Virus record (IMG/VR): IMGVR_UViG_3300036770_000545
Location: 1 to 63,264 of that record
Direction: 5' to 3' (one strand)
Source of the DNA: a virus
Length of the DNA: 63,264 bases
The notes beneath the pieces were generated by a model. The model was not told the origin of the DNA, did no database searches, and worked only from the letters and a program-made list of their open reading frames with translations. The position numbers were made by a program, and so were the translations under genes. Shown here piece after piece: positions 8,511 to 20,671 of this stretch; the stretch's first letter is position 1; every line of letters starts with the position of its first letter.

Positions 8511-8543
8511 GTCAGGGCTGCTTGTAAGCTCCTTGTTGCGCCG

Positions 8544-8573
8544 AGTGTAGTAGTAATAGTTTGAGTTTGTCAA
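8544..8573 (-). promoter_or_regulatory. Promoter for packaging/head operon
   Basis: On the minus strand TTGACA (8573-8568) and TACACT (8549-8544) are 18 bp apart. Transcription would begin near 8536, about 26 nt before the small terminase ATG. A run of 11 G (8582-8592) lies just upstream. Confidence 0.7.
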
Positions 8574-8945
8574 GAAAGAGAGGGGGGGGGGGTACTCACG
8601 ATCTTTGCAGCCGGTGTAAGCATGTTCATTGACCGGACCTCGGGTGAGGAGACCGCTTTCCCCTAAAAATTATATATCCCCCCGGGGGAAGTAGGGGACC
8701 CAAAAATACAAGGGGGTACTAATGCAATTTAGTGTCCGCCAAAACGTACCTTAAAAATGAGGGGGGTGGGGGTATAAATTTGTAATACAAAGTGCTGGGG
8801 AAACGCCGACGAGTGTGATCGGATGTGCAAATTAGTAAGTAGAGGGGTACCTGGACATTGCCGCGCTATCAGGGGGTGGGGGGTAGGTGGGGTCTGGCGG
8901 GCACCTAACACTGTTAGCCCCCCCTCATTATTGTTTCCCAAAGGG

Positions 8946-8975
8946 TTGCTTTTGCGTACCACATTTTGGTATAAT
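8946..8975 (+). promoter_or_regulatory. Early promoter 1 (rightward)
   Basis: TTGCTT (8946-8951) and TATAAT (8970-8975) are separated by 18 bp. ACATTTTGG before TATAAT resembles the same place in the promoter at 10274. Palindromes at 8905 and 9025 lie on either side. Confidence 0.7.
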
Positions 8976-9024
8976 AGGGGCAAGCGAGACGAAAACAGTT
9001 CGCTTCCTGGTTAGGCGGGTTTAC

Positions 9025-9037
9025 CTAACAGTGTTAG
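9025..9037. promoter_or_regulatory. Palindrome in the leader of the first early gene
   Basis: CTAACAGTGTTAG lies 50 bp downstream of the early promoter -10 box and 3 bp before the AAAGGA ribosome binding site of the gene at 9054. Bound protein would block elongation or translation initiation. Confidence 0.6.
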
Positions 9038-9053
9038 CAAAGGAAAACACACG

Positions 9054-9560
9054 ATGGAAAACATCATCATTGACGGCTCCGAAGTTTCGATTGAATCCCT
9101 CCGCAAGGGTGTTGCGGAAGCGGTAAAGCGGGCATACGGCGCCGAGCGGAATTACGCCAAGGCACTCAATGCCATGTTCGCCTTCGACTGGTTCGAGTTC
9201 GAAGCGAGCGACACGAGCGACGACGCCAAACTGGTCAAAGTGGAAAAGACCCTGCTCTACGGGGAACTGAAAGCAGCAGACCACACGAACCCTTCAACAG
9301 TGTGGGCGAGGATTCGCAAGTATGGCAAAGAAGAGCGCCACGGCAAGGCAGAGGGCGCCGAGGGCGAGGGTGGCGAGGGCGAGGGCGAGGGTGCCGGTAA
9401 CACCCCCCGCGATGCAATCACCCGTAATGTCGAGGAACTGTTGAACCTGTACAAGTTCAACAAGCGGCAAGAGGGTCTGCCCGCCAAAGTGATGGACGCG
9501 CAGAAGCACATTGCCACCGCGTTGATTGCCCTGGGTGTTGACCTGAGTATGGTCAAGTAA
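9054..9560 (+). CDS. First early gene, unknown function
   Basis: 168 aa; AAAGGA precedes ATG 9054. Residues 1-95 appear globular and mixed alpha/beta (SIESLRKGVAEAVKRAYGAE, then NPSTVWARIRKYGKEE). A low-complexity linker of Glu/Gly (GEGGEGEGEGAGN) spans residues 103-119. A helical C-terminal part ends MDAQKHIATALIALGVDLSMVK. Being alone between promoter and terminators and under two palindromes, it is a fair candidate for the regulator that binds the palindrome, but no known DNA-binding fold can be named. Confidence 0.75.
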   Translation: MENIIIDGSEVSIESLRKGVAEAVKRAYGAERNYAKALNAMFAFDWFEFEASDTSDDAKLVKVEKTLLYGELKAADHTNPSTVWARIRKYGKEERHGKAEGAEGEGGEGEGEGAGNTPRDAITRNVEELLNLYKFNKRQEGLPAKVMDAQKHIATALIALGVDLSMVK

Positions 9561-9565
9561 CCCGA

Positions 9566-9588
9566 GCGGGGCGCAAGCCCCGCTTCTC
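9566..9588 (+). terminator. Terminator after the first early gene
   Basis: GCGGGGC (9566-9572), a GCAA tetraloop and GCCCCGC (9577-9583), followed by the pyrimidine stretch TTCTCTC. Confidence 0.7.
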
Positions 9589-9626
9589 TCCAGCCCCCCT
9601 AACAATGTTAGGCGGGTTTTTCTTTT

Positions 9627-9658
9627 GCCCGTCTGGTTCGCACCACGCGGGCTTTTTT
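9627..9658 (+). terminator. Second terminator with T6 tract
   Basis: GCCCG (9627-9631) pairs with CGGGC (9648-9652), with an inner TGG/CCA stem, followed by six T. The palindrome copy at 9599 plus GGCGGGTTTTT can form a third terminator-like hairpin just before it. Confidence 0.75.
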
Positions 9659-9741
9659 GCGTCTGCTCTGACCGACCTAACAATGTTAGCCCGTGGCGAC
9701 CCCCATGGGCTTTTGTGTTTCCAGACGCTAGAGGTTTAGAG

Positions 9742-9797
9742 GGGTGGTGATAGTGACCAGAGCAGTGTAAGGACTAGGTCTAACAGTGTTAGGTTCT
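9742..9797 (+). repeat. 56-bp direct repeat unit, copy 1
   Basis: The unit runs from GTGGTGATAGTGACCAGAG through GTGTAAGGAC to a CTAACAGTGTTAG palindrome and GGTT. It is nearly the same as 9877-9932. The core TGATAGTGACCA (9748-9759) also occurs at 18799. Confidence 0.85.
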
Positions 9798-9822
9798 TGA
9801 CGCTCGACCTAAACTGGTTCCC

Positions 9823-9851
9823 AGTTTACCCCAAACTTTTCCGTTTGTCAA
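9823..9851 (-). promoter_or_regulatory. Leftward promoter overlapped by an inverted repeat
   Basis: On the minus strand TTGACA (9851-9846) and TAAACT (9828-9823) are 17 bp apart. The inverted repeat TAAACTGG-TTC-CCAGTTTA (9810-9828) covers the -10 box, as an operator would. No minus-strand gene is evident downstream, so the transcript may be antisense to 9054-9560. Confidence 0.5.
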
Positions 9852-9876
9852 GCCTTTTTTGTGCCTATGTTTACTT

Positions 9877-9932
9877 GCGTGGTGATAGTGACCAGAGAGG
9901 TGTAAGGACAAAGGCTAACAGTGTTAGGTTTT
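9877..9932 (+). repeat. 56-bp direct repeat unit, copy 2
   Basis: Matches 9742-9797 with few differences; the core TGATAGTGACCA is at 9883-9894 and the palindrome at 9915-9927. The pair brackets the leftward promoter at 9851. Confidence 0.85.
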
Positions 9933-9939
9933 TTGGCTT

Positions 9940-10022
9940 TGTTAGCGTGTAATGTTAGCGTGCTAACATTTGTAAGTTGTTGATTTAGTTCAACAAAGTC
10001 AGAATGTTATAATGTTAGCGTG
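9940..10022 (+). repeat. Three iteron-like repeats TGTTAGCGTG
   Basis: Copies are at 9940-9949, 9953-9962 and 10013-10022. The middle copy is part of the near-palindrome AATGTTAGC-GT-GCTAACATT (9951-9970), in which the palindrome half-sites face outward. The block is AT-rich, as in iteron origins. Confidence 0.6.
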
Positions 10023-10273
10023 ATTTTAGAGTATGGGTGAGAAAACGAGCCTCTCCGCAGATGCAGTTCAACGCACAGCCGCGAGACAAAAAAACCGACC
10101 CTCTCTCTCTTTCTCTAATAACATTATAACAATAGTCTACTTCTCCTCGCAAACCCGCATCACTGAGCCATTCACACTGTTAGAAACTTTTCTAACATCC
10201 ATCGCCATTTTTCTAACACCTAACATTGTTACCCCTGCGTTTTCCCTTCGGTCACGCCCTGCGACTAAAGTAC

Positions 10274-10302
10274 TTGACTTGTGTGGTACATTGTGATATA
10301 AT
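10274..10302 (+). promoter_or_regulatory. Early promoter 2
   Basis: TTGACT (10274-10279), 17-bp spacer, TATAAT (10297-10302). The spacer begins TGTGTGGTACA and is almost identical to that of the promoter at 12866. Confidence 0.85.
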
Positions 10303-10377
10303 GGGGTTGTAGTAAATGAGTAAAGAATTTCCGCTCGGGCTTCGGTCAAGCCCTAACAATGTTAGATGGAGACGCCA

Positions 10378-10602
10378 ATGAGTATGCAATTCACAACCCC
10401 TGACAATCAGTACCACATTACAAGCCACGGCAACGGATGGGCTTATGAGGTTCACTGCCAATCCACGGGATGTTCTTTGTGGTTCCAAGATGACGATGCG
10501 GCTAACTTGCAAACCGAAACCAACGACTTCACCAACACCGAAGTCTTGCGTTCTTACTTTGAGTGCCTGTGCTACGGCACGGCAGACACCGGCTTAGAGT
10601 GA
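10378..10602 (+). CDS. Small early protein, unknown function
   Basis: 74 aa from ATG 10378 with GGAG 7 bp upstream; an in-frame ATG at 10366 lacks a binding site. The sequence is polar (MSMQFTTPDNQYHITSHGNG) with three Cys and an acidic middle. The palindrome copy at 10353-10365 ends 12 bp before the start, suited to translational or transcriptional control. Confidence 0.7.
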   Translation: MSMQFTTPDNQYHITSHGNGWAYEVHCQSTGCSLWFQDDDAANLQTETNDFTNTEVLRSYFECLCYGTADTGLE

Positions 10603-10610
10603 GGCTACCC

Positions 10611-10877
10611 ATGACAACCAACCACGCCAACCTAACACTGTTAGGTCTAGCCGACAGAATCGACATCCACGAGTGCGCCAATGACTACTGCCAAGATGAG
10701 ATACCACCAGCCCGTTATGCACTCGGCTACCGCACCTGCCTGCAATGCGGAGACCGACAGGCAAAGCAAGAACGCAAACTGTGGTGCATCGCACCCATGC
10801 ACAAGAGTAACTATGTGCTGATAACAGACAAGGCAGACCTGCAAGGACTCAACAACAAAGGAGGGTTAGTGAGATGA
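10611..10877 (+). CDS. Small zinc-ribbon protein, DksA/TraR-like Cys pattern
   Basis: 88 aa from ATG 10611. Cys at about residues 22, 27, 44 and 47 (ECANDYCQDEIPPARYALG then RTCLQCGD) resemble the C4 zinc finger of DksA/TraR proteins, including the IPxAR turn. The C-terminus MHKSNYVLITDKADLQGLNN recurs in phage unknowns. A palindrome copy (10632) lies inside the gene and encodes LTLLG. A role in modifying host RNA polymerase is possible but unproven; the usual long coiled coil is absent. Confidence 0.7.
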   Translation: MTTNHANLTLLGLADRIDIHECANDYCQDEIPPARYALGYRTCLQCGDRQAKQERKLWCIAPMHKSNYVLITDKADLQGLNNKGGLVR

Positions 10878-11134
10878 AAGTGCAACAGGGAAAAAGAAGA
10901 AAACTTGTCAAGCGTCCCCAAACTTGGTTGTGGGCATACAAGCATTGCAACCGGAAAACAAAGCATTGGAATTGGCGGTTGGTTAGTGCCATGAGGGAAA
11001 TAGAACACAAGTCCTGCGTGCCGTTTGCTTTGTACAAGTGGAAGGCGTTTGGGTTCGATGGCAAAGAGCAACCCATGTGGACTATCGCTGACTACATGAA
11101 CGAGTGGTACGAGTACGCAGACCAATCAATCTAA
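10874..11134 (+). CDS. Small basic protein, unknown function
   Basis: 86 aa, starting in the ATGA overlap with the previous gene. The N-terminal half is rich in Lys, Arg and Trp (MKVQQGKRRKLVKRPQTWLW), the C-terminal half is acidic. No family recognised. A degenerate palindrome at 11131 covers the stop. Confidence 0.65.
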   Translation: MKVQQGKRRKLVKRPQTWLWAYKHCNRKTKHWNWRLVSAMREIEHKSCVPFALYKWKAFGFDGKEQPMWTIADYMNEWYEYADQSI

Positions 11135-11152
11135 CAATTTTAGGAGAGTGAG

Positions 11153-11302
11153 ATGAGTTACTTCAAGAAAAAAAGTGTTACCCGTGACGAGTTGATTAGG
11201 ATGCTTAACGATATGGAGATTGACAAAATCGAAGTCGAAGAATGTTACGGGGGTTCGTTGGAAATCTTTGTGTATGCAAAAGACGAGGAGGAAGTGAAAT
11301 GA
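11153..11302 (+). CDS. Small acidic protein (49 aa)
   Basis: Starts MSYFKKKSVTRDELIRMLND at ATG 11153 after AGGAGAGTGAG, and ends KDEEEVK. It overlaps the next gene by the ATGA arrangement. The strong binding site and coupling support it despite its size. No function can be given. Confidence 0.65.
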   Translation: MSYFKKKSVTRDELIRMLNDMEIDKIEVEECYGGSLEIFVYAKDEEEVK

Positions 11303-11433
11303 ACTGGATTAAAGACTTACTGTGGGACAACAGTCTCAGCGTGCGTGACAACCTAGCAACATGGGCTCTCGGCATCATCGGGTTCACCCTGTTCTATGTC
11401 CTGTTGTTCCTTGTGCTGCTACTTGGAGAGTGA
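11299..11433 (+). CDS. Small single-pass membrane protein (44 aa)
   Basis: From ATG 11299 (overlapping the previous stop, GAGGAAGTGAA upstream). Residues 1-18 are polar and the rest is one hydrophobic segment, ATWALGIIGFTLFYVLLFL, ending at LLLGE. Early position suggests a host-takeover membrane peptide; a holin-like role is less likely because lysis genes are elsewhere. Confidence 0.65.
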   Translation: MNWIKDLLWDNSLSVRDNLATWALGIIGFTLFYVLLFLVLLLGE

Positions 11434-11434
11434 G

Positions 11435-11605
11435 ATGACGATGACCACTCATGCCTTTGTGCAAAAACTGCGTAAGCAGGGAGTCAGGTGCGGGGATGTG
11501 GTACGCCTACGCGGCAAGCCGCATTACATTCAGGGCGTAACCAACCAGTACATAACTCTGGTGTCGATGGACGAGCGCAAGATGTTTATAACTTTATGGG
11601 GGTGA
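11435..11605 (+). CDS. Small protein, possible KOW/SH3-like fold
   Basis: 56 aa from ATG 11435 after GGAGAGTGAG. The segment GVRCGDVVRLRGKPHYIQGV, then YITLV, has the look of a small beta-barrel. Nothing firmer can be said. Confidence 0.6.
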   Translation: MTMTTHAFVQKLRKQGVRCGDVVRLRGKPHYIQGVTNQYITLVSMDERKMFITLWG

Positions 11606-11607
11606 GC

Positions 11608-11883
11608 ATGGGCAAGCCTGCTTTCGAGGTCGAGTCTGTGCGCCAAGCGGTTGCGGGTGGGAAAACCAATATGTACGAGGCGAGAGTCATTGTGCGCCAC
11701 GGCAAGAAGGGCAGACCCAAGAAGGAGAAGTTCGTAGTTTTCGGGCAAGACGAGATGGCGGCATACCTACGGGCTACCGAAGTCATGAAAGAAAGGAATA
11801 GAGATGCACAAGAACAAACCGAGCAAGCACAAGCCCGTGCTTGTAAAGAAGCGCAACCCTGTGGTGGCGGCACTTGTGGCTAA
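11608..11883 (+). CDS. Small protein, unknown function
   Basis: 91 aa from ATG 11608 with GGGGGTGAG upstream. It begins MGKPAFEVESVRQAVAGG, has a basic middle (RHGKKGRPKKEKFVVFG) and a Gln/Ala-rich helical end. The last 80 bp overlap another reading frame (11804). Confidence 0.6.
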   Translation: MGKPAFEVESVRQAVAGGKTNMYEARVIVRHGKKGRPKKEKFVVFGQDEMAAYLRATEVMKERNRDAQEQTEQAQARACKEAQPCGGGTCG

Positions 11884-11962
11884 CCCAAAGCGCAACGCGG
11901 GTAAACACAAGAGCAACCGAGCAGCCGACCTAACAATGTTAGACACAACAGAGAAGGAGTAG
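11804..11962 (+). CDS. Very small Lys/Arg-rich protein (52 aa)
   Basis: Starts at ATG 11804 with AAAGGAATAGAG as binding site, and ends at TAG 11960-11962. It begins MHKNKPSKHKPVLVKKRNPV and ends DTTEKE. Basic peptides with a KxRNPV motif recur in related phages. A palindrome copy (11930) lies inside and encodes LTML. The 80-bp out-of-frame overlap with the upstream gene is unusual. Confidence 0.55.
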   Translation: MHKNKPSKHKPVLVKKRNPVVAALVANPKRNAGKHKSNRAADLTMLDTTEKE

Positions 11963-11965
11963 ACC

Positions 11966-12850
11966 ATGGGATTCTTCGTATCAAAATTTGATGCTCCGAG
12001 GCTCTATAACTATATGGATGCCGTGGCGCATGAGCAGGAAGTGAAACCCATACGGGGCAAGGCTGATTGCAAGCCACTGGGCAAACGGCGAAACACTCAT
12101 GTGACCATCCGCAAGGGAGCAGACGAGAGCATCGCGTGTCGGCTGTACCACACCGATGTCATCACTTACCACAAGGACGGGCGCATCGAGTTTAGGCTGG
12201 AGGGTTGGGCGAGTCAGTCCACGATGGTGTTCATACGCGAGGTGCTTGGGGTGGATGCGGTCATCCGCAACAGTATGGTGTGGGTGCAGTCGGCTATCCC
12301 TAACTTGGCAACAGTTGGGTGGTACGCCTTGCATTCCCACGGGGTCAACGAGTTCAGGCGCAATGGACAGGGCGACCTTGAGTTTCAGAACCACACAACA
12401 TTCACCAAGCATACGATTAACCGAGCAGGTGCTAACAATGTTAGGAAGATGTTCAAACCCTTCAAGAATTACTTGTCGGCAACGATGCGTGTGCGAGATG
12501 CAGGCTTCAGTATCCAAGAGTTCGGGGATGTGTTCGGTTGGGTCATGGACGGCAGGATGCCTGACTACCCCAGGTGCATGGACTTCAGGCGGGACTGCTT
12601 GGATGGTGTCGATGAGTTCATCGGGTTGGCGCTATCAGAAGATGCACAAGATAGGTACAAGGCAACGCTAATACTGGTCAGGTCGATGGGGCACCCATAC
12701 CGAGATAGTTGGGCGGTGAATGTACCACACATGCTACGCAGGCTGGATGACTTTATTCTGTACGCCCATCGGGAAGAGTGTTTCGATGAGGTCGATGTGC
12801 CACTGGGAGAGATTGCCCGTGACCCATACGAGAAGTTCTTTAGTTACTGA
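11966..12850 (+). CDS. Conserved early phage protein, unknown function
   Basis: 294 aa; AAGGAG 7 bp upstream of ATG 11966. An N-terminal beta-rich part has THVTIRKGADESIACRLYHT and then ITYHKDGRIEFRLEGWASQS, a pattern I know from uncharacterised phage proteins. The C-terminal half is helical. It ends just before a promoter, so it closes this operon. A palindrome (12432) inside encodes NNVR. Confidence 0.7.
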   Translation: MGFFVSKFDAPRLYNYMDAVAHEQEVKPIRGKADCKPLGKRRNTHVTIRKGADESIACRLYHTDVITYHKDGRIEFRLEGWASQSTMVFIREVLGVDAVIRNSMVWVQSAIPNLATVGWYALHSHGVNEFRRNGQGDLEFQNHTTFTKHTINRAGANNVRKMFKPFKNYLSATMRVRDAGFSIQEFGDVFGWVMDGRMPDYPRCMDFRRDCLDGVDEFIGLALSEDAQDRYKATLILVRSMGHPYRDSWAVNVPHMLRRLDDFILYAHREECFDEVDVPLGEIARDPYEKFFSY

Positions 12851-12865
12851 GCGTGACCGAATCGC

Positions 12866-12894
12866 TTGACTTGTGTGGTACAATGTAGTATAAT
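12866..12894 (+). promoter_or_regulatory. Early promoter 3, upstream of the MoxR-VWA genes
   Basis: TTGACT (12866-12871), 17 bp, TATAAT (12889-12894). The first 17 bases equal those of promoter 10274. A perfect 17-bp palindrome, GCCTAACACTGTTAGGC, follows at 12920-12936 between promoter and gene. Confidence 0.85.
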
Positions 12895-12959
12895 AAAAAG
12901 AAAAAAGTAGTAAGAACCCGCCTAACACTGTTAGGCAACAACCAAGGAAAGGAAGTCCA

Positions 12960-14027
12960 ATGAGCGTTATATCTTTTGGTAAGCAAGTATCTTTGAAGCA
13001 AGCCGCAAGCATCATCCTCGCAACCCCTGAGAATCGGTATCTGTTGCAGGGTGAACCTGGCATCGGTAAGTCGTCTCTACTTAAGACGCTATCCGCAAGC
13101 CTGCCCAATCACGAGGTCGCATACATTGATGTTCCCAACATGGACTTGGGCGACATCGCCATGCCCGTGATTAACCACGAGACTAAGACTACTGCCTACT
13201 ACCCTAACACTAGGTTCAAGGTTCACACCGGCAAGCCCGTCATAACAATGTTAGATGAGTTCACCAAAGGTGCAGAGCCAATCAAGAATATGCTTCACCC
13301 CTTGCTTGAGGTGGCAAACCCTCGGCTTGGTGACATCTCCGTTCACCCCGAGTCAATCGTTTTTCTCACGGGTAATCTGTCTACTGACGGAGTCGGAGAC
13401 AACCTAAAGGCACACAGCCGCAACCGCATCATCCCCCTGACTGTGCGCAAACCAGACGCAGACGAGTGGCTTGAGTGGGCGGTGAACAACAACATCGAGC
13501 CGGTCATCATGGCGTGGGTGCGTCAGTTCCCTCATGCCTTGGCTAGTTACACAGATGATGCGCAGGGTGACAACCCATACATCTACAACCCGAAGAAGGT
13601 GCAGACTGCCTTTGTTTCGCCTCGCTCACTGGAGAGAGCCTCTAACATTGTTAGGGTACGCGAGAAGATTGATGCCGATACCATGATAGCCGCAATGTCT
13701 GGAGCCTTGGGCGAAGCGGCAAGCCGAGACATTCAGGCTTATGTGGAGTATCAAGACCAGTTGCCCACATGGGAGAGCATCATCAAGAACCCCAAGACTG
13801 CTGATGTCCCTAACAGCGCAGGTGCTTGTGCCGTTCTTATCTTTGGCGCCATCGCTAAGATTGCCAAGGACACAATGACCCCGTTCATGAGTTACTTGGA
13901 GCGGTTCGAGCCTGAGTGGCAAGCCTGTTTCGCTATCAATGTGGCGAAGTCCCCGACCAAGCAGAGCATCGCGTTCAGTTCCTTGGCATTCGCTGACTGG
14001 GTTACGAAGAACGAGGACTTGCTATGA
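12960..14027 (+). CDS. MoxR-family AAA+ ATPase
   Basis: 355 aa with GAAAGGAAG upstream. Walker A is GEPGIGKS (31-38), Walker B ITMLDEF (about 95-101), a sensor 1-like FLTGNLSTDGVGDNL follows, and SPRSLERAS gives the sensor 2-type Arg. MoxR ATPases act as chaperones or remodelers with VWA-domain partners, and the VWA gene lies next in this operon. The near-palindrome at 13242 overlaps the Walker B codons and a perfect copy at 13642 encodes NIVR. The substrate is unknown. Confidence 0.85.
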   Translation: MSVISFGKQVSLKQAASIILATPENRYLLQGEPGIGKSSLLKTLSASLPNHEVAYIDVPNMDLGDIAMPVINHETKTTAYYPNTRFKVHTGKPVITMLDEFTKGAEPIKNMLHPLLEVANPRLGDISVHPESIVFLTGNLSTDGVGDNLKAHSRNRIIPLTVRKPDADEWLEWAVNNNIEPVIMAWVRQFPHALASYTDDAQGDNPYIYNPKKVQTAFVSPRSLERASNIVRVREKIDADTMIAAMSGALGEAASRDIQAYVEYQDQLPTWESIIKNPKTADVPNSAGACAVLIFGAIAKIAKDTMTPFMSYLERFEPEWQACFAINVAKSPTKQSIAFSSLAFADWVTKNEDLL

Positions 14028-14239
14028 GTTCGGAGAAACAAGTACTGGACAAAGCCCGCAAGTATTTACTTGCTAATGGATACGAGAGTAGTGACTTCTT
14101 TGTTACTAAAGTAGAGAGGACTAACAATGTTAGATGCAGAGCGCAGGTTGAAGAAAATCAAAATCAGTTTGATGCGAAACCCCAAGTTCGCGTTGTGGTC
14201 GGGGATGCTCATGCTAGGCAAGACGGAGGTGGTCGATAA
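14024..14239 (+). CDS. Possible small protein overlapping the VWA gene
   Basis: 71 aa, beginning in an ATGA overlap with the MoxR stop (MSSEKQVLDKARKYLLANGY). The first 34 residues have no competing frame, but the last 113 bp overlap the VWA gene in another frame. It may be a real coupled gene, or a translational bridge between MoxR and VWA. Confidence 0.45.
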   Translation: MSSEKQVLDKARKYLLANGYESSDFFVTKVERTNNVRCRAQVEENQNQFDAKPQVRVVVGDAHARQDGGGR

Positions 14240-15347
14240 CTTCCCGACTGCCTGCACCAACGGGCGGGATGAGAAGTATGGGCGCAAGTTCATCGAGGAG
14301 TTGGACGACAAAGAGTTGGCGTTCGTTGTCCTCCACGAGAACCTCCACAAAGCGTTCCGTCACTTGTTCATCTGGCGCAAGTTGTGGGAGGAGAACCCCA
14401 AATTGGCGAATGCGGCTTGCGACTATGTCATTAACCTGATGATTGTCGAGAGCGACCCCAACGAGAGCGTAGTTGCCATGCCCCGCAAGGAAGGGAAGGT
14501 CTATGGCTTGCTCGACCCACGCTTTGCCAAGATGAATGCGAAGCAAGTGTTCGACATTCTCAAGAAGGAGCAACAACAAGGCGGTGGCGGTGGTCAAGGT
14601 GATGGTCAAGGCGAGGGTCAAGGCGGTGCTGATGGTGGGTTCGATGACCACGACTGGGAGGGTGCGCAAGGTCTGTCCGATGAGGATAAGCAAGTACTGG
14701 AAAAGGAAGTAGACCAAGCACTCCGCCAAGGTCAAATCGCACACCAAAAGGTCAACGGCAAGGGTGCGGGTGGCATGGGGCGCGAGTTGGGTGACTTGCT
14801 TGAGCCGCAGGTGGACTGGCGCGAGGTGATGCGTGAGTTCGTCAAGTCTATCTGCAACGCCAAGGATGCAAGTTCATGGCGTAGAGTGAATCGCCGGTTC
14901 CTGTCGGGTGATGTCTATATGCCTACGCTAATCGGTGAAAGGGTTGGGCGCATCGCGGTTGGCATCGACACATCGGGTTCCATCGGTGGGCAGGAGTTGA
15001 ATCGGTTTCTCTCCGAGGTGAAGTCTATTGCCGAGGATGTTCATCCCGAGTTCATCGACTTGGTCTACTGGGATAGCAGTGTGGCGGCGCACGAAGAGTA
15101 TGACGAGTTGTCAGTACCTAACATTGTTAGTTCTACTAAGCCGGTAGGTGGAGGCGGCACTGACCCACGGGCAATGATGGCTTACTTGAAGGAGAAGAAC
15201 ATCACGCCGGAGTGCATTGTGATGCTTACGGATGGTTACATAGGGGAGTGGGGTAATGAATGGAATGCTCCGATTCTTTGGGCGATTTGCAATGGAGCAT
15301 CGGATGTCTATGCCCCATGCGGTAAGACTGTTCATATTAAGGACTAG
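14127..15347 (+). CDS. VWA-domain protein with putative metallopeptidase domain (DUF2201-like)
   Basis: 406 aa. The N-terminal domain has LHENLHKAFRHL near residues 70-81, an HExxH zinc-binding motif. A Gly/Gln/Asp linker spans about 151-173. The C-terminal von Willebrand A domain has the MIDAS motif DTSGS near 281-285 and GGGGTDP and LTDGY later. With MoxR it forms a RavA-ViaA-like pair. The start codon at 14127 lies inside a palindrome copy (14121-14133), with AGAGAGGA upstream, so bound protein would cover the initiation site. Another copy at 15118 encodes NIVS. Confidence 0.85.
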   Translation: MLDAERRLKKIKISLMRNPKFALWSGMLMLGKTEVVDNFPTACTNGRDEKYGRKFIEELDDKELAFVVLHENLHKAFRHLFIWRKLWEENPKLANAACDYVINLMIVESDPNESVVAMPRKEGKVYGLLDPRFAKMNAKQVFDILKKEQQQGGGGGQGDGQGEGQGGADGGFDDHDWEGAQGLSDEDKQVLEKEVDQALRQGQIAHQKVNGKGAGGMGRELGDLLEPQVDWREVMREFVKSICNAKDASSWRRVNRRFLSGDVYMPTLIGERVGRIAVGIDTSGSIGGQELNRFLSEVKSIAEDVHPEFIDLVYWDSSVAAHEEYDELSVPNIVSSTKPVGGGGTDPRAMMAYLKEKNITPECIVMLTDGYIGEWGNEWNAPILWAICNGASDVYAPCGKTVHIKD

Positions 15348-15351
15348 GCTA

Positions 15352-15600
15352 ATGAAGAAAGCAATTGTCAGAGTGGGATACACCCAGTTCGTACTGGATA
15401 CGCCGAAAGCCCTAGCATTTTTAGAGTTGCTGGCCGAAGCAGAAATCTACGAAGAGAAGTGGAAGAAGAAGGAGGATGGCGGGACGACTCACCATGTCTA
15501 CCCGCAAGACACCAACGACAGCATTCGGCAGTTGCAGATTGTGCCGACTGCGTTCTACCACATGGCGAAGATGGCGGGGCGACCCGATAGGGAGAGTTGA
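15352..15600 (+). CDS. Small protein, unknown function
   Basis: 82 aa from ATG 15352, 4 bp after the VWA stop. Begins MKKAIVRVGYTQFVLDTPKA; a helical segment follows (LAFLELLAEAEIYEEKWKKK). Found in the same operon; no family recognised. Confidence 0.65.
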   Translation: MKKAIVRVGYTQFVLDTPKALAFLELLAEAEIYEEKWKKKEDGGTTHHVYPQDTNDSIRQLQIVPTAFYHMAKMAGRPDRES

Positions 15601-15601
15601 T

Positions 15602-15742
15602 ATGACTGACCAAGAAAAAATCGAATTGGCATTTGATTTACTAGCGGATGCAGAAGTTATGCATGAGTTTGATGACTGTCTGTGGGTGAAGGTTGACCGA
15701 GAGTTGTGGGAGGAGTTTCAAAAAGCGGGAGGTACAAAATGA
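15602..15742 (+). CDS. Very small acidic protein (46 aa)
   Basis: ATG 15602 follows GGGAGAGTTGAT. Begins MTDQEKIELAFDLLADAEVM. Overlaps the next gene by 4 bp. Function unknown. Confidence 0.6.
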   Translation: MTDQEKIELAFDLLADAEVMHEFDDCLWVKVDRELWEEFQKAGGTK

Positions 15743-15915
15743 CTGAATTACTAGCGGTAAGCGTGACGGCAAACCTGTTTCTAATCTTCAGTTACATGAA
15801 GATGCGGTTTCATTGCCGAGTTGTATCGGAGTTGTTGAAAGGGATTGCTTGTGGCGAAGTCGAGCTGGTGGCTAACGAGCAAGGTAGTTTTGAAGTACGA
15901 GTAAACAAAACCTAA
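15739..15915 (+). CDS. Small protein with an N-terminal hydrophobic segment
   Basis: 58 aa from ATG 15739 (GGGAGG upstream). Residues 2-18 (TELLAVSVTANLFLIFS) could anchor it in the membrane, with a soluble, mildly acidic tail. Its TAA stop lies within the palindrome at 15912. Confidence 0.6.
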   Translation: MTELLAVSVTANLFLIFSYMKMRFHCRVVSELLKGIACGEVELVANEQGSFEVRVNKT

Positions 15916-15943
15916 CAATGTTAGTTGACGAAGGAGCGAACCC

Positions 15944-16801
15944 ATGAGTATTACATCTAGTGCAGTACAGGTAGAAATGAATATCTCTGTGTGGACTGCC
16001 AACAAGTTGGACAAGTCTGCAACCGAGAAGGTGGTAGCAGATAACTCTGCGGTGCAAAACGCCGCCCAAGTTCGTAAGAACCTGATGGCAGGCACGAGCC
16101 TACGGAAAGACATCTCTGACTATGCGGCGGGATGTCGCCTGTGGCACAACACCCGTACTCTGCCATGGGCAGACAAAGGGGCACGACTGTTGTCTACCAG
16201 TCTGTTCTTGGACTACAAGACGGAGGCAAACATTCGGCGGGACACCTTCAACAAGATGGTGGATAACTTCTGCACTAACTACCCCGCGCTGGTGCAGACA
16301 TCGCATAACTACCTTGGCACTCTGTTCAACCCCGAGGACTACCCGAGCGTTGACGAAGTGCGAAGCAAGTTCGGCTTCAGGCTAGTGTTTAGCCCTGTGC
16401 CTGAGTCGGGCGACTTTCGGTTGCAGGTAGCCGAGCAAGACTTACAAGACCTACGCCAGCAGTACGAGGAGAATTTTTCGAGCCGTCTCGCTGACGCTAT
16501 GCGTGAACCATGGGACAGACTCCACAAGTTGCTGATTGGCATGAGCGAGAAGTTGACGGATGTCGAGGGTGATGACGAGAGCAAGAAGCGTTACCACGAT
16601 ACCCTCATTACAAACGCGCAGACTCTGTGTTCCCTGCTGACGCACTTGAATGTGACGAAAGACCCCAAGTTGGAGCAGGCGCGGCGTGACCTTGAACTAA
16701 CAATGTTAGGTGCTGACATTGATGCAATCAAAGAGAGTCCCGAAGTGCGCAAGGGTATGAAGGACAAACTGGATGCAATCCTCAAGCAGTATGAATGGTA
16801 A
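15944..16801 (+). CDS. Early phage protein, unknown function
   Basis: 285 aa; AAGGAG lies upstream of ATG 15944. Mixed fold: an N-terminal part with VWTANKLDKSATEKVVADN and a long helical C-terminal half (QQYEENFSSRLADAMREPWD). Residues near 225-260 carry DPKLEQARRDLELTMLG, where the palindrome at 16697 encodes LTMLG. Similar proteins occur in aquatic phages without assignment. Confidence 0.65.
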   Translation: MSITSSAVQVEMNISVWTANKLDKSATEKVVADNSAVQNAAQVRKNLMAGTSLRKDISDYAAGCRLWHNTRTLPWADKGARLLSTSLFLDYKTEANIRRDTFNKMVDNFCTNYPALVQTSHNYLGTLFNPEDYPSVDEVRSKFGFRLVFSPVPESGDFRLQVAEQDLQDLRQQYEENFSSRLADAMREPWDRLHKLLIGMSEKLTDVEGDDESKKRYHDTLITNAQTLCSLLTHLNVTKDPKLEQARRDLELTMLGADIDAIKESPEVRKGMKDKLDAILKQYEW

Positions 16802-16811
16802 GGAGAGAACA

Positions 16812-17705
16812 ATGATTGACGAACTTAAGTACAGCTACATCGAACTGACTCTGCCTAACATCGTAGCCCGATGGGAGAAAGGGGACAGCCTGAATGAGAA
16901 TAACCTTCCCACATTTGAGATTGACTCCGACCTCAAGCCTTTTGTGGAAGCCTTGGCTATGAAGTATCCACAATGGCGTTTTGTTTGTAGTAGTTATTGG
17001 AGGCATCGGCGGGGGGATGACGAACCAGTTCATGCGGCGCGGAGGTTCAATGTGTACAACGGGCGTGAAGTGTTGGGCGAGATAAGCACTGACTCGATGC
17101 GCAATGGGAGCGTGTACACAATCTACAACGAGCGTATCGAAAGGAGCAGGTCGCGTGGTCGTGTGACTAAGACCAAGGACTTGAACAAGGCGGTCAAGAT
17201 TGTCGGCAAGATGTTTGGGTCTAAGACGATAGAAGAAAGAATGCTTGGGGTTATGGAGGAGGGCGGTGCTATCGTTTCGCAAGTGTATCGTGACAGGTGG
17301 TACAAGTTTGATTCTACCTACTCAGACATCACTTCTAAGTTGGTTCCGTATGTCATTGCTAACTGGGATGTCATATCTGAAGAAGCCTTAAAGGAGAATG
17401 CAGACCCTAACATTGTTAGTTCGTTTACAAATATATACAACGAGCATCAAGCCATGAAAGGAATCCAAGAATGTCTAGCAAAAAGTGCAGGGGTTGCGGT
17501 GTTAATTCATGGCAAAGATTATGCCGTGACAAAAGTAAACGCAAGCGTATCGGACGAAACTACCCTCTACACAACCGAAACACTACCGCTCCATATTAAG
17601 TCGGCAATAGGTATGCTCAAGTTGTTGGAACCGAAAAACTTTATCGGTGGCGTTGGCGTTAAAATCTCCGATGAATCATTCTTTGTGGTCAAGGAGGAAG
17701 CATGA
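16812..17705 (+). CDS. Early phage protein, unknown function
   Basis: 297 aa from ATG 16812 with AAGGAGAG upstream. It starts MIDELKYSYIELTLPNIVAR, has a basic centre (ERSRSRGRVTKTKDLNKAV) and a beta-rich C-terminus. The palindrome copy at 17407 encodes PNIVS. It overlaps the ribbon-helix-helix gene by 4 bp. Confidence 0.65.
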   Translation: MIDELKYSYIELTLPNIVARWEKGDSLNENNLPTFEIDSDLKPFVEALAMKYPQWRFVCSSYWRHRRGDDEPVHAARRFNVYNGREVLGEISTDSMRNGSVYTIYNERIERSRSRGRVTKTKDLNKAVKIVGKMFGSKTIEERMLGVMEEGGAIVSQVYRDRWYKFDSTYSDITSKLVPYVIANWDVISEEALKENADPNIVSSFTNIYNEHQAMKGIQECLAKSAGVAVLIHGKDYAVTKVNASVSDETTLYTTETLPLHIKSAIGMLKLLEPKNFIGGVGVKISDESFFVVKEEA

Positions 17706-17917
17706 GCAACGAGATGCCAACCAAGCGGGTACGGGGCAAAGGGAAGAACCCTGCTAAAGCCCATGTGAACCTACGACTGCCGGTAGAAGTGTTAGAGTTT
17801 TATAAAGAATTCCCCAATTACACGGGGAAGATGCGAGAAGTACTTGTTAACTACCAAAAGGAGCATGACCATGAAAAAGTCTCTAGCGATTCTTTGCGCA
17901 ATGATGATGAGCAGTAG
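17702..17917 (+). CDS. Putative ribbon-helix-helix (BrnA/CopG-like) DNA-binding protein
   Basis: 71 aa. After a basic tail (MPTKRVRGKGKNPAK), residues 21-53 read AHVNLRLPVEVLEFYKEFP then GKMREVLVNYQKE: a beta strand followed by two helices as in RHH proteins such as BrnA antitoxins. RHH dimers bind short palindromes, so it is a candidate reader of CTAACANTGTTAG. Start is in an ATGA overlap with the previous gene. Confidence 0.6.
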   Translation: MSNEMPTKRVRGKGKNPAKAHVNLRLPVEVLEFYKEFPNYTGKMREVLVNYQKEHDHEKVSSDSLRNDDEQ

Positions 17918-18014
17918 CGTTCTCGCCGCTGTTAAGTGCGAGCCAAGCCCACGCGGCGGCATGTGCTGTTGGGATACTAAAGTAGATGGCCCGTTCAGAC
18001 CTTTAGGTTGCTAA
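17871..18014 (+). CDS. Small secreted Cys-containing peptide (47 aa)
   Basis: ATG 17871 has AAAGGAG 8 bp upstream. Residues 1-20 (MKKSLAILCAMMMSSSVLAA) form a clear signal peptide with an A-x-A-type cleavage site; the mature 27 residues carry four Cys (VKCEPSPRGGMCCWD..., ending GC). It overlaps the RHH gene by 47 bp in another frame. A periplasmic or surface role in excluding other phages is a guess. Confidence 0.65.
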   Translation: MKKSLAILCAMMMSSSVLAAVKCEPSPRGGMCCWDTKVDGPFRPLGC

Positions 18015-18029
18015 TAATGTAAGCACTGC

Positions 18030-18042
18030 CTAACATTGTTAG
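18030..18042. promoter_or_regulatory. Palindrome between operons, before a terminator and promoter
   Basis: CTAACATTGTTAG lies 16 bp after the secreted-peptide stop and 49 bp upstream of the -35 box of the next promoter. A degenerate copy (CTAATAATGTAAG) precedes it at 18011. Confidence 0.6.
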
Positions 18043-18053
18043 GTCGTTTCCAA

Positions 18054-18076
18054 CCCGCCCAAGTGGCGGGTTTTTT
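18054..18076 (+). terminator. Rho-independent terminator
   Basis: CCCGCC (18054-18059), a 5-nt loop, GGCGGG (18065-18070) and six T. Confidence 0.9.
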
Positions 18077-18090
18077 ATTATCTAAAAGGT

Positions 18091-18118
18091 TTGACAAAGT
18101 CCAAAGATGTGCTATCAT
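18091..18118 (+). promoter_or_regulatory. Promoter of the second family (class B)
   Basis: TTGACA (18091-18096), 16 bp, TATCAT (18113-18118). The core TTTGACAAAGTC, then AAAG and TGTGCTAT, is shared with the promoter at 28062. The predicted start of transcription falls on or next to ATG 18126. Confidence 0.8.
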
Positions 18119-18125
18119 TACGCAC

Positions 18126-18449
18126 ATGGCAAGCACCCCTGAGAAGAAGGTCAAAGACCAAGTAGTCAAAACGCTGAAGGCAAATAGCGTGTACTATTTT
18201 TTCCCTGCTACTTACGGCATGGGGCGGTCAGGTGTGCCAGACATCATCTGTTGCGTTGAGGGGCGCTTCCTTGCTATCGAGTGCAAGGCAGGCAAGAACA
18301 AGCCCACGGCGCTACAGGAGCGGGAGATGTCTGCGATTGTATCTGCTGGTGGGAGTGCAATAGTGGTTAACGAAGAGAACCTACATGAAGTAGGTCAGAT
18401 ACTACAACTACTCAAGGAATACGATGGACGACCCAATACTGACGATTAG
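18126..18449 (+). CDS. VRR-NUC domain nuclease
   Basis: 107 aa. The PD-(D/E)XK-type motif is SGVPDIICCVEGRFLAIECK: Asp in GVPD near residue 39 and E-x-K near 51-53, followed by TALQEREM with the conserved Gln. Such small nucleases act on branched or replicating DNA. No ribosome binding site is seen and the -10 box ends 7 bp before the ATG, so the mRNA is probably leaderless. Confidence 0.85.
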   Translation: MASTPEKKVKDQVVKTLKANSVYYFFPATYGMGRSGVPDIICCVEGRFLAIECKAGKNKPTALQEREMSAIVSAGGSAIVVNEENLHEVGQILQLLKEYDGRPNTDD

Positions 18450-18801
18450 AAACAAAGGCGTTCAGATTCTACTGAACCGCATGGAGTCTAACCCCGAAGA
18501 GTTTACGGCTAGACCTAACAGAACATTGATGGCAGAAAACAGGTGGGAGTGGGTTATTGATAAGGTGATAAACCGAATCGACAACAACCACAAGAACACC
18601 GACAACTACCGAATGCAATTACGCTTTCTCACTAACGAGGAAGTGGAAGCCCTGTACGACAAGTATATGTCTATCCAAGGTGAGGCGTTTACAAAAGCCA
18701 TCATGCAAGAACTACTTGAAGAGGCTAACGAAAGAGAGCAAGAGGCTAACATTGTTAGGTCTGCTCCGATGATGGTCGCCAATTCTCCTCGCGTCCGATG
18801 A
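18424..18801 (+). CDS. Small helical protein, unknown function
   Basis: 125 aa from ATG 18424 (AAGGA upstream), overlapping the nuclease gene by 26 bp. Mostly helical and charged; it carries RLTNEEVEALYD-like segments (FLTNEEVEALYDKYMS). The last palindrome of the array (18745) encodes NIVR near its end. Confidence 0.6.
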   Translation: MDDPILTIRNKGVQILLNRMESNPEEFTARPNRTLMAENRWEWVIDKVINRIDNNHKNTDNYRMQLRFLTNEEVEALYDKYMSIQGEAFTKAIMQELLEEANEREQEANIVRSAPMMVANSPRVR

Positions 18802-18847
18802 TAGTGACCAAAAAGAGTGGTACTCAACAACAAGGCGGTGCAAGCAC

Positions 18848-20671
18848 ATGCAAATTTTAACGATAGATTTTGAAACTTTTTACGACCGGGACTTTTCCCT
18901 GTCAAAAATGACTACGGAGGAGTACATCCGTTCAGAGCAGTTTGAAACGATTGGTGTGGCTGTCAAGGTTGGTGACGGAAAGACAGAGTGGTTTAGTGGT
19001 ACTCACCAAGACACACTGGAATTCTTGTGGAAATTTGACTGGGAGAACTCAATTGCGCTTGCACACAATGCTATGTTCGATATGGCAATCCTCAATTGGC
19101 GCTTTGGCATCTCTCCTAAAAAGATTGCTGATACTTTATCTATGGCCCGGGCGATACACGGAACCGAAGTCGGAGGAAGCCTTGCCGCACTGGCGTCACA
19201 TTATCAACTCGGAACAAAAGGAACGGAGGTAGTCAATGCGCTGGGCAAAAGACGAATTGATTTTTCTCCTGAAGATATGTCCCGGTACGGTGATTACTGT
19301 ATTAACGATGTCAATCTTACTTACGATCTTTTTGGTTGTCTTGTTGCTGACTTTCCCGTAAGCGAACTTAATCTGATTGACCTTACGATACGGATGTTCA
19401 CCGAACCCGTACTGGAACTCGACAAAAACATTTTGAAAGGGCACTTGCGTGAAGTGCAAGACTCCAAGGCTCGGCTCATGGAGGGTATTGACGAGAACCG
19501 CGATGTGCTGATGAGCAACCCACAGTTTGCTGAACTGTTACGCAAGCAGGGCGTTGAACCCCCCATCAAGATTAGTCCCCTTACAAACAAAGAAACCTAC
19601 GCTTTCTCCAAGACTGACGAGGAGTTCAAGGCGTTACTAGAGCATGAAAACGAGGCGGTGCAAGCCCTTGTTGCGGCTCGGTTGGGAGTCAAGTCAACCA
19701 TCGAAGAGACACGCACCCAACGATTTATTGAGATTGCGGATCGGGGTTTACTACCCATCCCCCTACGCTACTATGCGGCACACACGGGGCGTTGGGGTGG
19801 TGATGACAAGGTCAACATGCAGAACCTTCCTCGGACCTCTCCGCTTAAACGTGCCATCCTCGCACCGAAGAACTACAAGATAATTGACTCCGACTCCTCA
19901 CAAATTGAAGCCCGTACGCTGGCATGGCTGGCAGAGCAGAACGACTTGGTCGATGCTTTCGACAAAGGTGAGGACGTTTACAGGATTATGGCTTCTGCCA
20001 TCTACGGCAAAGACATAGATCAGATTAACAAAGATGAGCGGTTTGTAGGCAAGACAACAATTCTCGGTGCGGGATACGGCATGGGGCCTGCTAAGTTTCG
20101 TACTCAGTTAAAAGTCTTTGGCGTTGACCTTTCGGAAGATGAGTGCAAACGCATCATCTCGGTGTATCGAGAGACTTACCCCCGCATCCCACTGTTGTGG
20201 AAAGAAGCAAGCAATGCGTTGCTAGCCATAGCAAACGAGCAGACCGCCCCACTGGGAAGAGCAGGAGTGCTTGCTGTGGAGGGGAGCAAAGGTATTAAGT
20301 TGCCTAACGGGCTATACGTTAAGTACCCAAACCTGCGGCGTTGGGTCAATGACCAAGGTAAAGAAGAACTGGTGTACGACACAAAGCGTGGCAAAGCGGT
20401 GATTCCCAACCGCATCTACGGGGGCAAAGTAATTGAGAACGTGTGTCAAGCCCTTGCGCGTATCGCCATCGGTGAGCAGATGTTAATGATCTCTAAAAAG
20501 TACCGCGTGGTCATGACGGTACATGACGCTATCGCTTGCATAGTCCCCGAACATGAAGGAGAAACGGGGCAAGAGTTTGTAGAAATGTGCATGCGTATTC
20601 GCCCCAAGTGGGCACCTGACCTTCCGCTGAACTGCGAGTCTGGCGTAGGTCGTTCTTATGGAGACTGTTGA
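18848..20671 (+). CDS. DNA polymerase, family A, with 3'-5' exonuclease
   Basis: 607 aa. Exonuclease motifs: DFETF (7-11), HNAMFDMAIL near 75 and YCINDVNLTYD near 147. Polymerase motifs: A, DSDSSQIEAR near 346; B, KTTILGAGYG near 400-410; C, VHDAIA near 559. It is of the short T7-like layout without a 5' nuclease domain and is the replicative polymerase of the phage. The third TGATAGTGACCA repeat (18799) lies just upstream. Confidence 0.9.
   Translation: MQILTIDFETFYDRDFSLSKMTTEEYIRSEQFETIGVAVKVGDGKTEWFSGTHQDTLEFLWKFDWENSIALAHNAMFDMAILNWRFGISPKKIADTLSMARAIHGTEVGGSLAALASHYQLGTKGTEVVNALGKRRIDFSPEDMSRYGDYCINDVNLTYDLFGCLVADFPVSELNLIDLTIRMFTEPVLELDKNILKGHLREVQDSKARLMEGIDENRDVLMSNPQFAELLRKQGVEPPIKISPLTNKETYAFSKTDEEFKALLEHENEAVQALVAARLGVKSTIEETRTQRFIEIADRGLLPIPLRYYAAHTGRWGGDDKVNMQNLPRTSPLKRAILAPKNYKIIDSDSSQIEARTLAWLAEQNDLVDAFDKGEDVYRIMASAIYGKDIDQINKDERFVGKTTILGAGYGMGPAKFRTQLKVFGVDLSEDECKRIISVYRETYPRIPLLWKEASNALLAIANEQTAPLGRAGVLAVEGSKGIKLPNGLYVKYPNLRRWVNDQGKEELVYDTKRGKAVIPNRIYGGKVIENVCQALARIAIGEQMLMISKKYRVVMTVHDAIACIVPEHEGETGQEFVEMCMRIRPKWAPDLPLNCESGVGRSYGDC

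Follow-up and report, generated by a model that had tools for sequence, protein, structure and literature searches.

Since the description of Corndog, phages that lack lysogeny genes have been known to carry dispersed palindrome arrays, without a binder or a function. Corndog, a Cluster O mycobacteriophage, has 34 copies of TGTTCGG-N3-CCGAACA and no integrase (PMC4351075). The palindrome arrays of Cluster O are the closest published case to the array described here, which lies in a 63,264-base IMG/VR virus record (hereafter the window, meaning the whole stretch of DNA that was analysed). The array consists of 19 exact copies of the 13-bp palindrome CTAACANTGTTAG over the early region, and the product of the first early gene (9054-9560) is its very probable binder.

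The Corndog palindromes have a 7-3-7 plan; many are intergenic, about one-third are in genes, there is no parAB, and their positions are mostly conserved among relatives (PMC4351075). As in Cluster O, the dyads of the present array have invariant arms and an A/T-rich centre, are mostly not linked to promoters, and occur without an integrase (PMC4351075). One class of palindromes from relatives of the window, GTTAGTG-N3-CACTAAC, has the same 7-3-7 plan as Corndog. The Cluster A stoperators (L5 and Bxb1) are 20-30 sites of 13 bp, most of which are off promoters, and these features are shared here (PMC6550527, PMC9283540). In Cluster A, the motif and the repressor diverge together and bear on superinfection specificity (PMC6550527, PMC9283540), and such a co-divergence is also seen here. 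In the literature searched, no report of the present arrays was found, most subscription journals being outside the coverage. The main text of PMC9599517 contains neither "palindrom" nor "integrase".

Palindrome array in the window

An exact search found 19 matches to CTAACANTGTTAG in the window, the first at 8905-8917 and the last at 18746-18758, and no other exact copy anywhere else in the record. Only 0.01 copies were expected, and none of 100 shuffles reached 19. The array starts to the right of the terminase genes, in the divergent control region, and ends just short of the DNA polymerase gene (18848), 89 bp ahead of it, with a mean site spacing of about 547 bp. Under the array lie small genes, a gene for a 294-amino-acid (aa) protein, an AAA ATPase gene, a VWA/metallopeptidase gene, a gene for a 285-aa protein, and others. 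Thus, the perfect-palindrome array over the early region that had been pointed out in a first-pass annotation of the window is borne out, and the density of sites is not equal in the rest of the genome, where exact sites number zero.

Three single-mismatch sites (10220, 11131, and 13242) are all within the array. Two-mismatch sites are found within the array (10171, 15412, and 18011) and beyond it (22504, 36045, and 40337), while chance alone would give 2.6 matches with at most two mismatches over the full window. The centre base had been annotated as free. It does vary, being G or C at 6 of the 19 window sites, but it is mostly A or T, namely in 221 of the 235 exact sites of 21 loci with the CTAACANTGTTAG motif (window included, some contigs counted twice). 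According to my own assignment of reading frames, nine of the window sites are in genes, one is on a gene end, and nine are intergenic. Site 14121, counted as in-gene, also overlaps the start of the VWA gene.

Arrays in related loci

Is the array common among relatives of this virus? With the VWA, polymerase, first-gene, and terminase proteins as queries, I collected 402 loci, some of which share a contig. A uniform array test was applied to 120 loci (window included) having at least 2.5 kb right of the terminase start, and 95 of them have a significant palindrome array in the early region. When equal stretches on each side of the terminase start were compared, the array was on the right (early) side in 48 of 56 loci and on the left (late) side in none. 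More than 30 different palindromes occur among the 95 array loci (my own count, with register variants of the 47 top strings merged). They include CTAACA-N-TGTTAG, TTCCCAC-N-GTGGGAA, TTCATAT-N-ATATGAA, GTTAGTG-N3-CACTAAC, TTCGGGC-N4-GCCCGAA, TACTGTC-N-GACAGTA, and GGTCAGA-N2-TCTGACC. The window palindrome is present in at least five exact copies in 43 of the first 162 loci, and the more distant loci have other palindromes in the same region. A motif restricted to the window was rejected on this count of 43 loci. Chance and base composition were ruled out as the source of the array by the 19 copies against 0.01 expected and by the early-side-only arrays of the relatives.

Whole records were also compared with the fetched loci. 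Exact-site counts were equal in 13 of 20 records (ten of the 13 with at least five sites), as they were in 5 of 5 records and in four pattern-matching records out of six. The other seven of the 20 have 1 to 8 extra sites, where the locus covers part of the early region or single sites are outlying. In whole records, the early locus holds most of the sites, and a few isolated ones lie farther right.

The locus L005 has a TerL 86% identical and a VWA protein 81% identical to those of the window. Of the 19 window sites, 15 are in DNA alignable with L005, and 12 of these have a partner site at the same place, with the arms kept and the centre base differing at several. The flanks average 64% identity over the 15 sites. 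The in-gene sites 12432, 13642, 15118, and 16697 are among those kept. Absence of the motif at matching places in close relatives, which the first-pass annotation had considered, was not what was found. A group of five loci, L213, L217, L219, L228, and L229, with a TerL 79-80% identical to that of the window, shares a 232-252-aa first gene, and no array was found in it. These loci may be negative controls or carriers of a looser motif.

Co-variation of the first early gene with the palindrome

Of the loci compared, 38 extend leftward past the control region into the next gene, and in 36 of them a 155-281-aa protein is encoded by the first rightward frame of some size; in the two exceptions, L049 and L058, a later gene was picked. 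The first-gene proteins form several families without detectable similarity, most of which are tied to their own motifs. When six clusters were compared by hhalign, c24 was related to c98 (probability 93, E 3e-7), with which it has a TAACA-N-TGTTA core in common, and c45 to c312 (probability 97); other pairings gave about 11 or less.

Two palindromes were counted as the same motif, by a rule of my own, if 0.8 of the shared arm positions agreed at equal distance from the centre, and spacer variants such as CTAACA-N2-TGTTAG were counted as different motifs. The sample went from 95 loci with an array and a first-gene pick to 88, and to 75 after removal of near-duplicates. Nine loci were set aside by eye because of a wrong or doubtful pick, and two, L060 and L071, were restored with the gene found earlier. 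In pairs with a TerL identity of at least 0.90, the first-gene identity was 0.67 for 28 same-motif pairs versus 0.38 for 24 different-motif pairs. The corresponding values for the gene across the control region were 0.85 and 0.84. A permutation test was performed with 337 pairs (TerL identity of at least 0.80), in which TerL divergence was regressed out and labels were shuffled within backbone groups only. The effect on first-gene identity in same-motif pairs was +0.204, which none of 2000 permutations reached (largest 0.120). The gene on the other side of the control region gave an effect of 0.021 (604 of 2000 permutations).

Exchange of palindromes in place

After removal of near-duplicates, 24 of the 52 pairs with a TerL identity of at least 0.90 use different palindromes. 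In these 24 pairs, 59 of the 69 alignable sites hold the palindrome of the other phage at the same place. The pairs are not independent, as 12 of the 24 belong to one backbone group, which accounts for 55 sites out of 69 and for 46 exchanges out of 59. Since the pairs are related to each other, 59 of 69 is a description and does not stand for 59 events.

The loci L264 and L075 are such a pair. Their proteins are 99% identical in TerL, 98% in the gene across the control region, 99% in the AAA ATPase, 98% in the 285-aa-type protein, and 71% in the first-gene protein. The DNA identity is 94% left of the first gene, 81% across the first-gene stretch, and 93% in the last aligned part. At four aligning L264 sites, the flanking DNA corresponds, and both arms of the palindrome are different (TTCATAC-N-GTATGAA versus TTCCCAC-N-GTGGGAA in L075). 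A fifth L075 site (8817) lies opposite a one-mismatch copy of the L264 word and was excluded from the exchange count. In-place differences of the palindrome were also found at two sites of L377/L385 and at three of L241/L247. In L181 and L183, almost no early region is alignable with the window, so that a block exchange and not an in-place change is indicated.

The first protein of L264 is a natural mosaic, which differs from that of L070, a member of the TTCCCAC class, mainly in a 46-residue helix-turn-helix-like segment. The identity to L070 is 89% in residues 1-66, 59% in residues 67-112, and 82% in residues 113-174. With the TTCATA-class proteins of L256, L066, and L258, the identity is 52, 36, and 29% in residues 1-66, 76, 74, and 65% in residues 67-112, and 31, 33, and 27% in residues 113-174. 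Moreover, 14 of the 18 alignment columns separating five TTCCCAC proteins from four TTCATA proteins fall in the middle segment. In an AlphaFold2 model of the L264 family (mean predicted local distance difference test score (pLDDT) 72, predicted template modelling score (pTM) 0.58), two predicted helices, 63-74 and 79-95, are mostly covered by residues 67-112 and suggest a helix-turn-helix-like layout. The model of the window protein (pLDDT 78, pTM 0.52) has helices 56-74 and 80-96 and a C-terminal pair, 121-138 and 144-159. At the sequence level, the specificity segment is located in one natural mosaic, L264.

Given the motif co-variation and the mosaic L264 with its matching site change, the first gene very probably encodes the binder. 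I am highly confident, as far as sequence comparison goes, that the 9054-9560 protein would bind the array palindromes, presumably as a dimer. This product had been listed as a candidate in the first-pass annotation and is now strongly favoured, and the operator-like nature proposed there for the palindromes is supported, the binder being presumably dimeric.

No worthwhile Pfam or PDB-sequence match was found for the window first protein or its family. None of ten first-gene proteins of other families scored above the Pfam cut-off, the best being L224 to DUF1978 (E 1.9e-4, below the cut-off). The two AlphaFold models gave no convincing fold match; the best VIA Z values, 4.4 and 6.0, are at the level of common helical arrangements, and the match with 6.0 is a probable transcriptional regulator. 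No relatives of the window first protein were found in named phages or plasmids at E 0.01. Some loci have an unusual arrangement of the gene. L155 (139-921) and L154 (83-865) have a first-gene relative on the minus strand, which in L155 is flanked on either side by CTAACA-N2-TGTTAG sites. L010 (2361-2942 and 4167-4694) and L017 (2773-3297 and 4564-5094) have two first-gene copies of the window's family and one palindrome.

Placement of the sites

The first early gene (9054-9560, plus strand) encodes a 168-aa protein of an orphan family with a mostly helical model. It is preceded by a promoter-like TTGCTT-18-TATAAT (8946-8975, plus strand), which was read by eye because its -35 element is too weak for the promoter scan. 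Site 1 (8905-8917), upstream of this promoter, and site 2 (9025-9037), 16 bp ahead of the gene, are 120 bp apart and straddle it. A pair 115-121 bp apart ahead of the first gene is also present in L005, L018, L030/L031, and L164 (the promoter was examined in the window only). As the sites pair at 115-121 bp, a loop is possible.

Placement was measured as an exact site ending at most 150 bp upstream of a start codon and compared with random placement. Such a site was found for the first gene in 58 of 75 loci, for the AAA gene in 46 of 62, for the 294-aa type in 25 of 42, for the VWA gene in 24 of 56, and for the 285-aa type in 25 of 52, where random placement gives 13-17% (17% for the AAA start, whose median site distance is 25 bp). 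The counts were 7 of 29 for a 310-aa type, 5 of 25 for the VRR nuclease, and 1 of 17 for the polymerase (random 2-12%). For the first gene, the median distance from site to start is 103 bp, while the medians of the AAA, 294-aa, VWA, and 285-aa types are in the range of 16-25 bp. The sites are spaced more evenly than at random (coefficient of variation 0.53 versus 0.84, 52 loci). Among 583 sites, exact TATAAT is enriched 41-80 bp upstream, with smaller peaks 40-99 bp downstream.

Past the first early gene, the window has four intergenic sites: site 3 (9599-9611), site 4 (9677-9689), which adjoins a terminator-like hairpin, site 5 (9780-9792), and site 6 (9915-9927). A single-mismatch site (10220-10232) and a promoter-like TTGACT-17-TATAAT (10274-10302, plus strand, promoter scan) are followed by site 7 (10353-10365), 50 bp past the promoter-like -10 element. 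Site 8 (10632-10644) is in a small gene close to its start, a single-mismatch site (11131-11143) is at a gene end, site 9 (11930-11942) is in a 52-aa gene 23 bp ahead of the 294-aa gene, and site 10 (12432-12444) is in the 294-aa gene. Another TTGACT-17-TATAAT (12866-12894, plus strand, promoter scan) is followed by site 11 (12922-12934), 27 bp past its -10 element and 25 bp ahead of the AAA ATPase gene. The AAA gene contains a single-mismatch site (13242-13254) and site 12 (13642-13654). Site 13 (14121-14133) is in a small frame and overlaps the start of the VWA/metallopeptidase gene, and site 14 (15118-15130) is in the VWA gene. Site 15 (15912-15924) is on a gene end 19 bp ahead of the 285-aa gene, site 16 (16697-16709) is in that gene, and site 17 (17407-17419) is in the next one. 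Site 18 (18030-18042) precedes a terminator-like hairpin and a promoter-like match (18091-18118), and site 19 (18746-18758) is in a 125-aa gene ahead of the DNA polymerase. Thus, of the three best promoter matches in the window, two end shortly ahead of a site (50 bp for 10353 and 27 bp for 12922), and one (18091) comes after site 18030.

The window has a second repeated word, GATAGTGACCA, at 9749-9759 and 9884-9894, 20 bp ahead of sites 9780 and 9915, and at 18800-18810, shortly ahead of the DNA polymerase. At the second and third places, it is kept in the aligned L005 DNA. Possibly, another factor binds there or the word belongs to an origin. The AAA ATPase, VWA/metallopeptidase, and 285-aa genes (12960-16801) form a cassette common to most relatives seen. 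Many records annotate the VWA gene as an HNH endonuclease, and Pfam gives a metallopeptidase and a VWA-like domain. The divergent control region (8580-8900) has long G runs, which may have a function or may be an assembly effect.

Possible function of the array

I favour, at a little better than even confidence, the view that the palindromes are dispersed operators of the first-gene protein that would limit or silence early transcription in a stoperator-like manner. Sequence comparison establishes the array, its place, its conservation, the in-place exchange, the first-gene co-variation, and the specificity segment in one mosaic; dimeric binding, the timing, transcriptional silencing, and an immunity-like use are inferred. 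Transcriptional limitation or silencing as such is moderately probable, and a use against co-infecting kin is possible at somewhat less than an even chance. The protein would be made at once from the divergent early promoter. Since two sites straddle this promoter, the protein could shut it off. It would then occupy one site per about 550 bp along the early transcription units, where the bound protein may block or slow RNA polymerase like a stoperator complex, and early transcription would be limited or ended. If a second genome bearing identical sites arrived later, its early genes would be silenced as well. Each lineage would have its own protein-palindrome pair, and the two would change together, either through exchange of the complete early block or through base changes within the sites. 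Silencing and looping over early genes, both suggested in the first-pass annotation, may take place, and the resemblance to stoperators seen there is supported by the dispersed 13-bp sites mostly outside promoters and by the joint divergence of motif and protein. It is tempting to speculate further that the array is a self-recognition code of phages without visible lysogeny genes, in which each lineage has a private palindrome read by a first-made protein that silences the early genes of co-infecting kin with the same tag, and competition re-letters both in place; this idea is tentative and should be taken as rather less probable than not. The fast code turnover raises the question of why 24 of the 52 close pairs differ in palindrome.

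Several observations weigh against the operator function. Only about 6% of the 583 sites have an exact TATAAT 41-80 bp upstream, and thus most sites are not promoter operators. A promoter scan of the whole region was not above chance (11 found, 8.4 expected). No array was detected in 25 of the 120 loci, including 11 with more than 5 kb, and a few relatives have lone sites past the dense array (18424 in L028, 18983 in L057, and 16711 in the L040 record). Family and structure searches recognised no DNA-binding family or known fold for the first-gene protein, and most of the nearest named phages by terminase have no array in the parts read. Known stoperators are asymmetric and oriented (PMC6550527, PMC9283540), and it is an assumption that palindromes block elongation. 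No lysogeny genes were found; searches for a tyrosine integrase, a ParA-type ATPase, and a serine recombinase each gave nothing in the 22 long records covered, although IMG/VR records may be incomplete, and the control searches were positive in 14, 14, and 10 of 14 genomes. Thus, classical lysogeny is not indicated, and the annotated lack of an integrase holds in these records. Lastly, other early genes track the motif too, less strongly: the effect is 0.075 for the AAA gene, 0.121 for the 285-aa type, and 0.055 for the 310-aa type (each 0 of 1000 permutations), 0.068 for the VWA gene (16 of 1000), and 0.013 for the 294-aa type (43 of 1000). On the same pairs, the first-gene effect is 0.149-0.245, above each of them, and the tracking by the other genes is presumably due to linkage. 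The AAA and 285-aa-type genes are disfavoured as the cause, since their products are 99% and 98% identical in L264 and L075 despite the different motif.

The position of sites ahead of gene starts would agree with activation no less than with repression. The first-gene protein might be an activator, an antiterminator-like factor, or an anti-silencing factor sustaining early transcription, or might serve DNA protection or recombination. Site 18030 precedes the promoter-like match at 18091, site 8905 precedes the first promoter, and terminator-like hairpins are near sites 9677 and 18030. However, two of the three best promoter matches have their site on the downstream side (10353 after 10302 and 12922 after 12894), and nine sites are in genes, without an obvious activation target. 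I consider these roles unlikely. A role in DNA organisation or partition is still less likely. In that case, the protein would load like ParB or KorB and cluster, anchor, or segregate the genome or mark it for replication, with secondary effects on transcription. The 13-bp odd palindromes clustered in one region, the spacing more even than random, and the adjoining replication genes agree with this, but no ParA-type ATPase was found in the 22 records, a ParB-like PHROG was matched by only one of 16 family members, weakly (E 0.076), the sites favour gene starts, and two of them straddle the first promoter. The partition-like system raised in the first-pass annotation is not supported, and the 9054-9560 product itself gave no match to a ParB family.

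It is very unlikely that the palindromes work as short hairpins in the early RNAs, with the first-gene product as an RNA-binding protein. Such stems would also agree with the change of both arms at one place and with the short distance to ribosome-binding sites. In the 21 loci with the window motif, there are 235 exact and 44 single-mismatch sites (some contigs twice). The innermost A-T pair flanks one base and cannot pair in an RNA hairpin, yet it is altered in only 4 of the 44 variants, and the outermost pair in 37. None of the 44 leaves a G-T pair, versus about 15 expected by chance, and site 8905 is upstream of the rightward promoter. Thus, the array probably acts as a DNA rather than an RNA element. 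Binding of the arrays by a host transcription factor, with the motif differing as hosts differ, is the most improbable case. CtrA, a host regulator, does control genes of Alphaproteobacteria phages (PMC9437464), but the palindrome tracks a phage gene at near-identical backbones, such as L264 versus L059 with a TerL identity of 99%.

Named phages and known systems

No named phage has a near DNA match to window 8000-19000. Judged by terminase matches, the group lies close to HTVC023P-type pelagiphages and Pag-Yong1, with 52-57% identity. No array above threshold was found in the parts read of HTVC023P, HTVC027P, DSL-LC04, Caulobacter RW, CRP-901, and 023Pt_psg01, nor in those of KPP25, Rollin, and phiA008; HTVC023P and CRP-901 have three copies each of a weak palindrome. 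Pag-Yong1 has 19 copies of GGTTCA-N3-TGAACC in 49 kb, and Rhizobium phage RHph_TM3_14A (L168/L172) has 26 copies of TTACC-N6-GGTAA in the whole record, in both cases partly outside the early region. RHph_TM3_14A has eight more copies with a 5-bp spacer, and its arms contain AGGT or GGT, so that an overlap with ribosome-binding sites is possible. Pag-Yong1 and the cultured RHph_TM3_14A open a bench route. A search for prophage relatives in bacterial genomes, with one genome per species and only close relatives detectable, gave a single 4.4-kb contig of a metagenome-assembled genome. The GenBank entries OL906435, OQ594354, and PP438419, each 65,014 bp with equal match scores, were deposited for Planktothrix, Synechococcus, and Planktothricoides. 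OL906435 has 69% G+C over the 49 kb read, which is odd for such hosts. The true host of the OL906435-type phages may therefore be another bacterium in the cultures.

In the present case, the candidate binder can be named from its sequence, a specificity segment has been located, and nature provides many protein-site pairs, both matched and mismatched. The function of such arrays is now directly testable, and many DNA-binding specificities of orphan protein families are on offer. Among known systems, phiC31 has conserved inverted repeats over its early region bound by the phage c repressor, and is a temperate phage with an integrase. The KorB site is a 13-bp odd palindrome, as in the present array. 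On plasmid RK2, repeated KorB operators bring about long-range silencing, with KorB as a ParB-type clamp working with KorA (PMC11790492), whereas no such domain was recognised in the first-gene protein. In SPbeta, the repressor MrpR was found long after its repeated element, a short sequence with nine or ten dispersed copies that are bound by this one phage protein, which resembles the present array (PMC10516654). The SPbeta sites are in prophage promoter regions, and MrpR has a tyrosine recombinase fold (PMC10516654); no convincing match to such a fold was obtained with the two family models here. In the mostly temperate Cluster A phages, the stoperators lack symmetry, point in the direction of transcription, and are recognised by a monomeric repressor (PMC6550527, PMC9283540). 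In contrast, the sites described here are perfect palindromes, in phages with no lysogeny genes found in the 22 records. Cluster O has more than 30 copies genome-wide and one motif per cluster (PMC4351075), whereas the window has 19 copies in the early region only, and its relatives have lineage-specific motifs and a nameable candidate binder.

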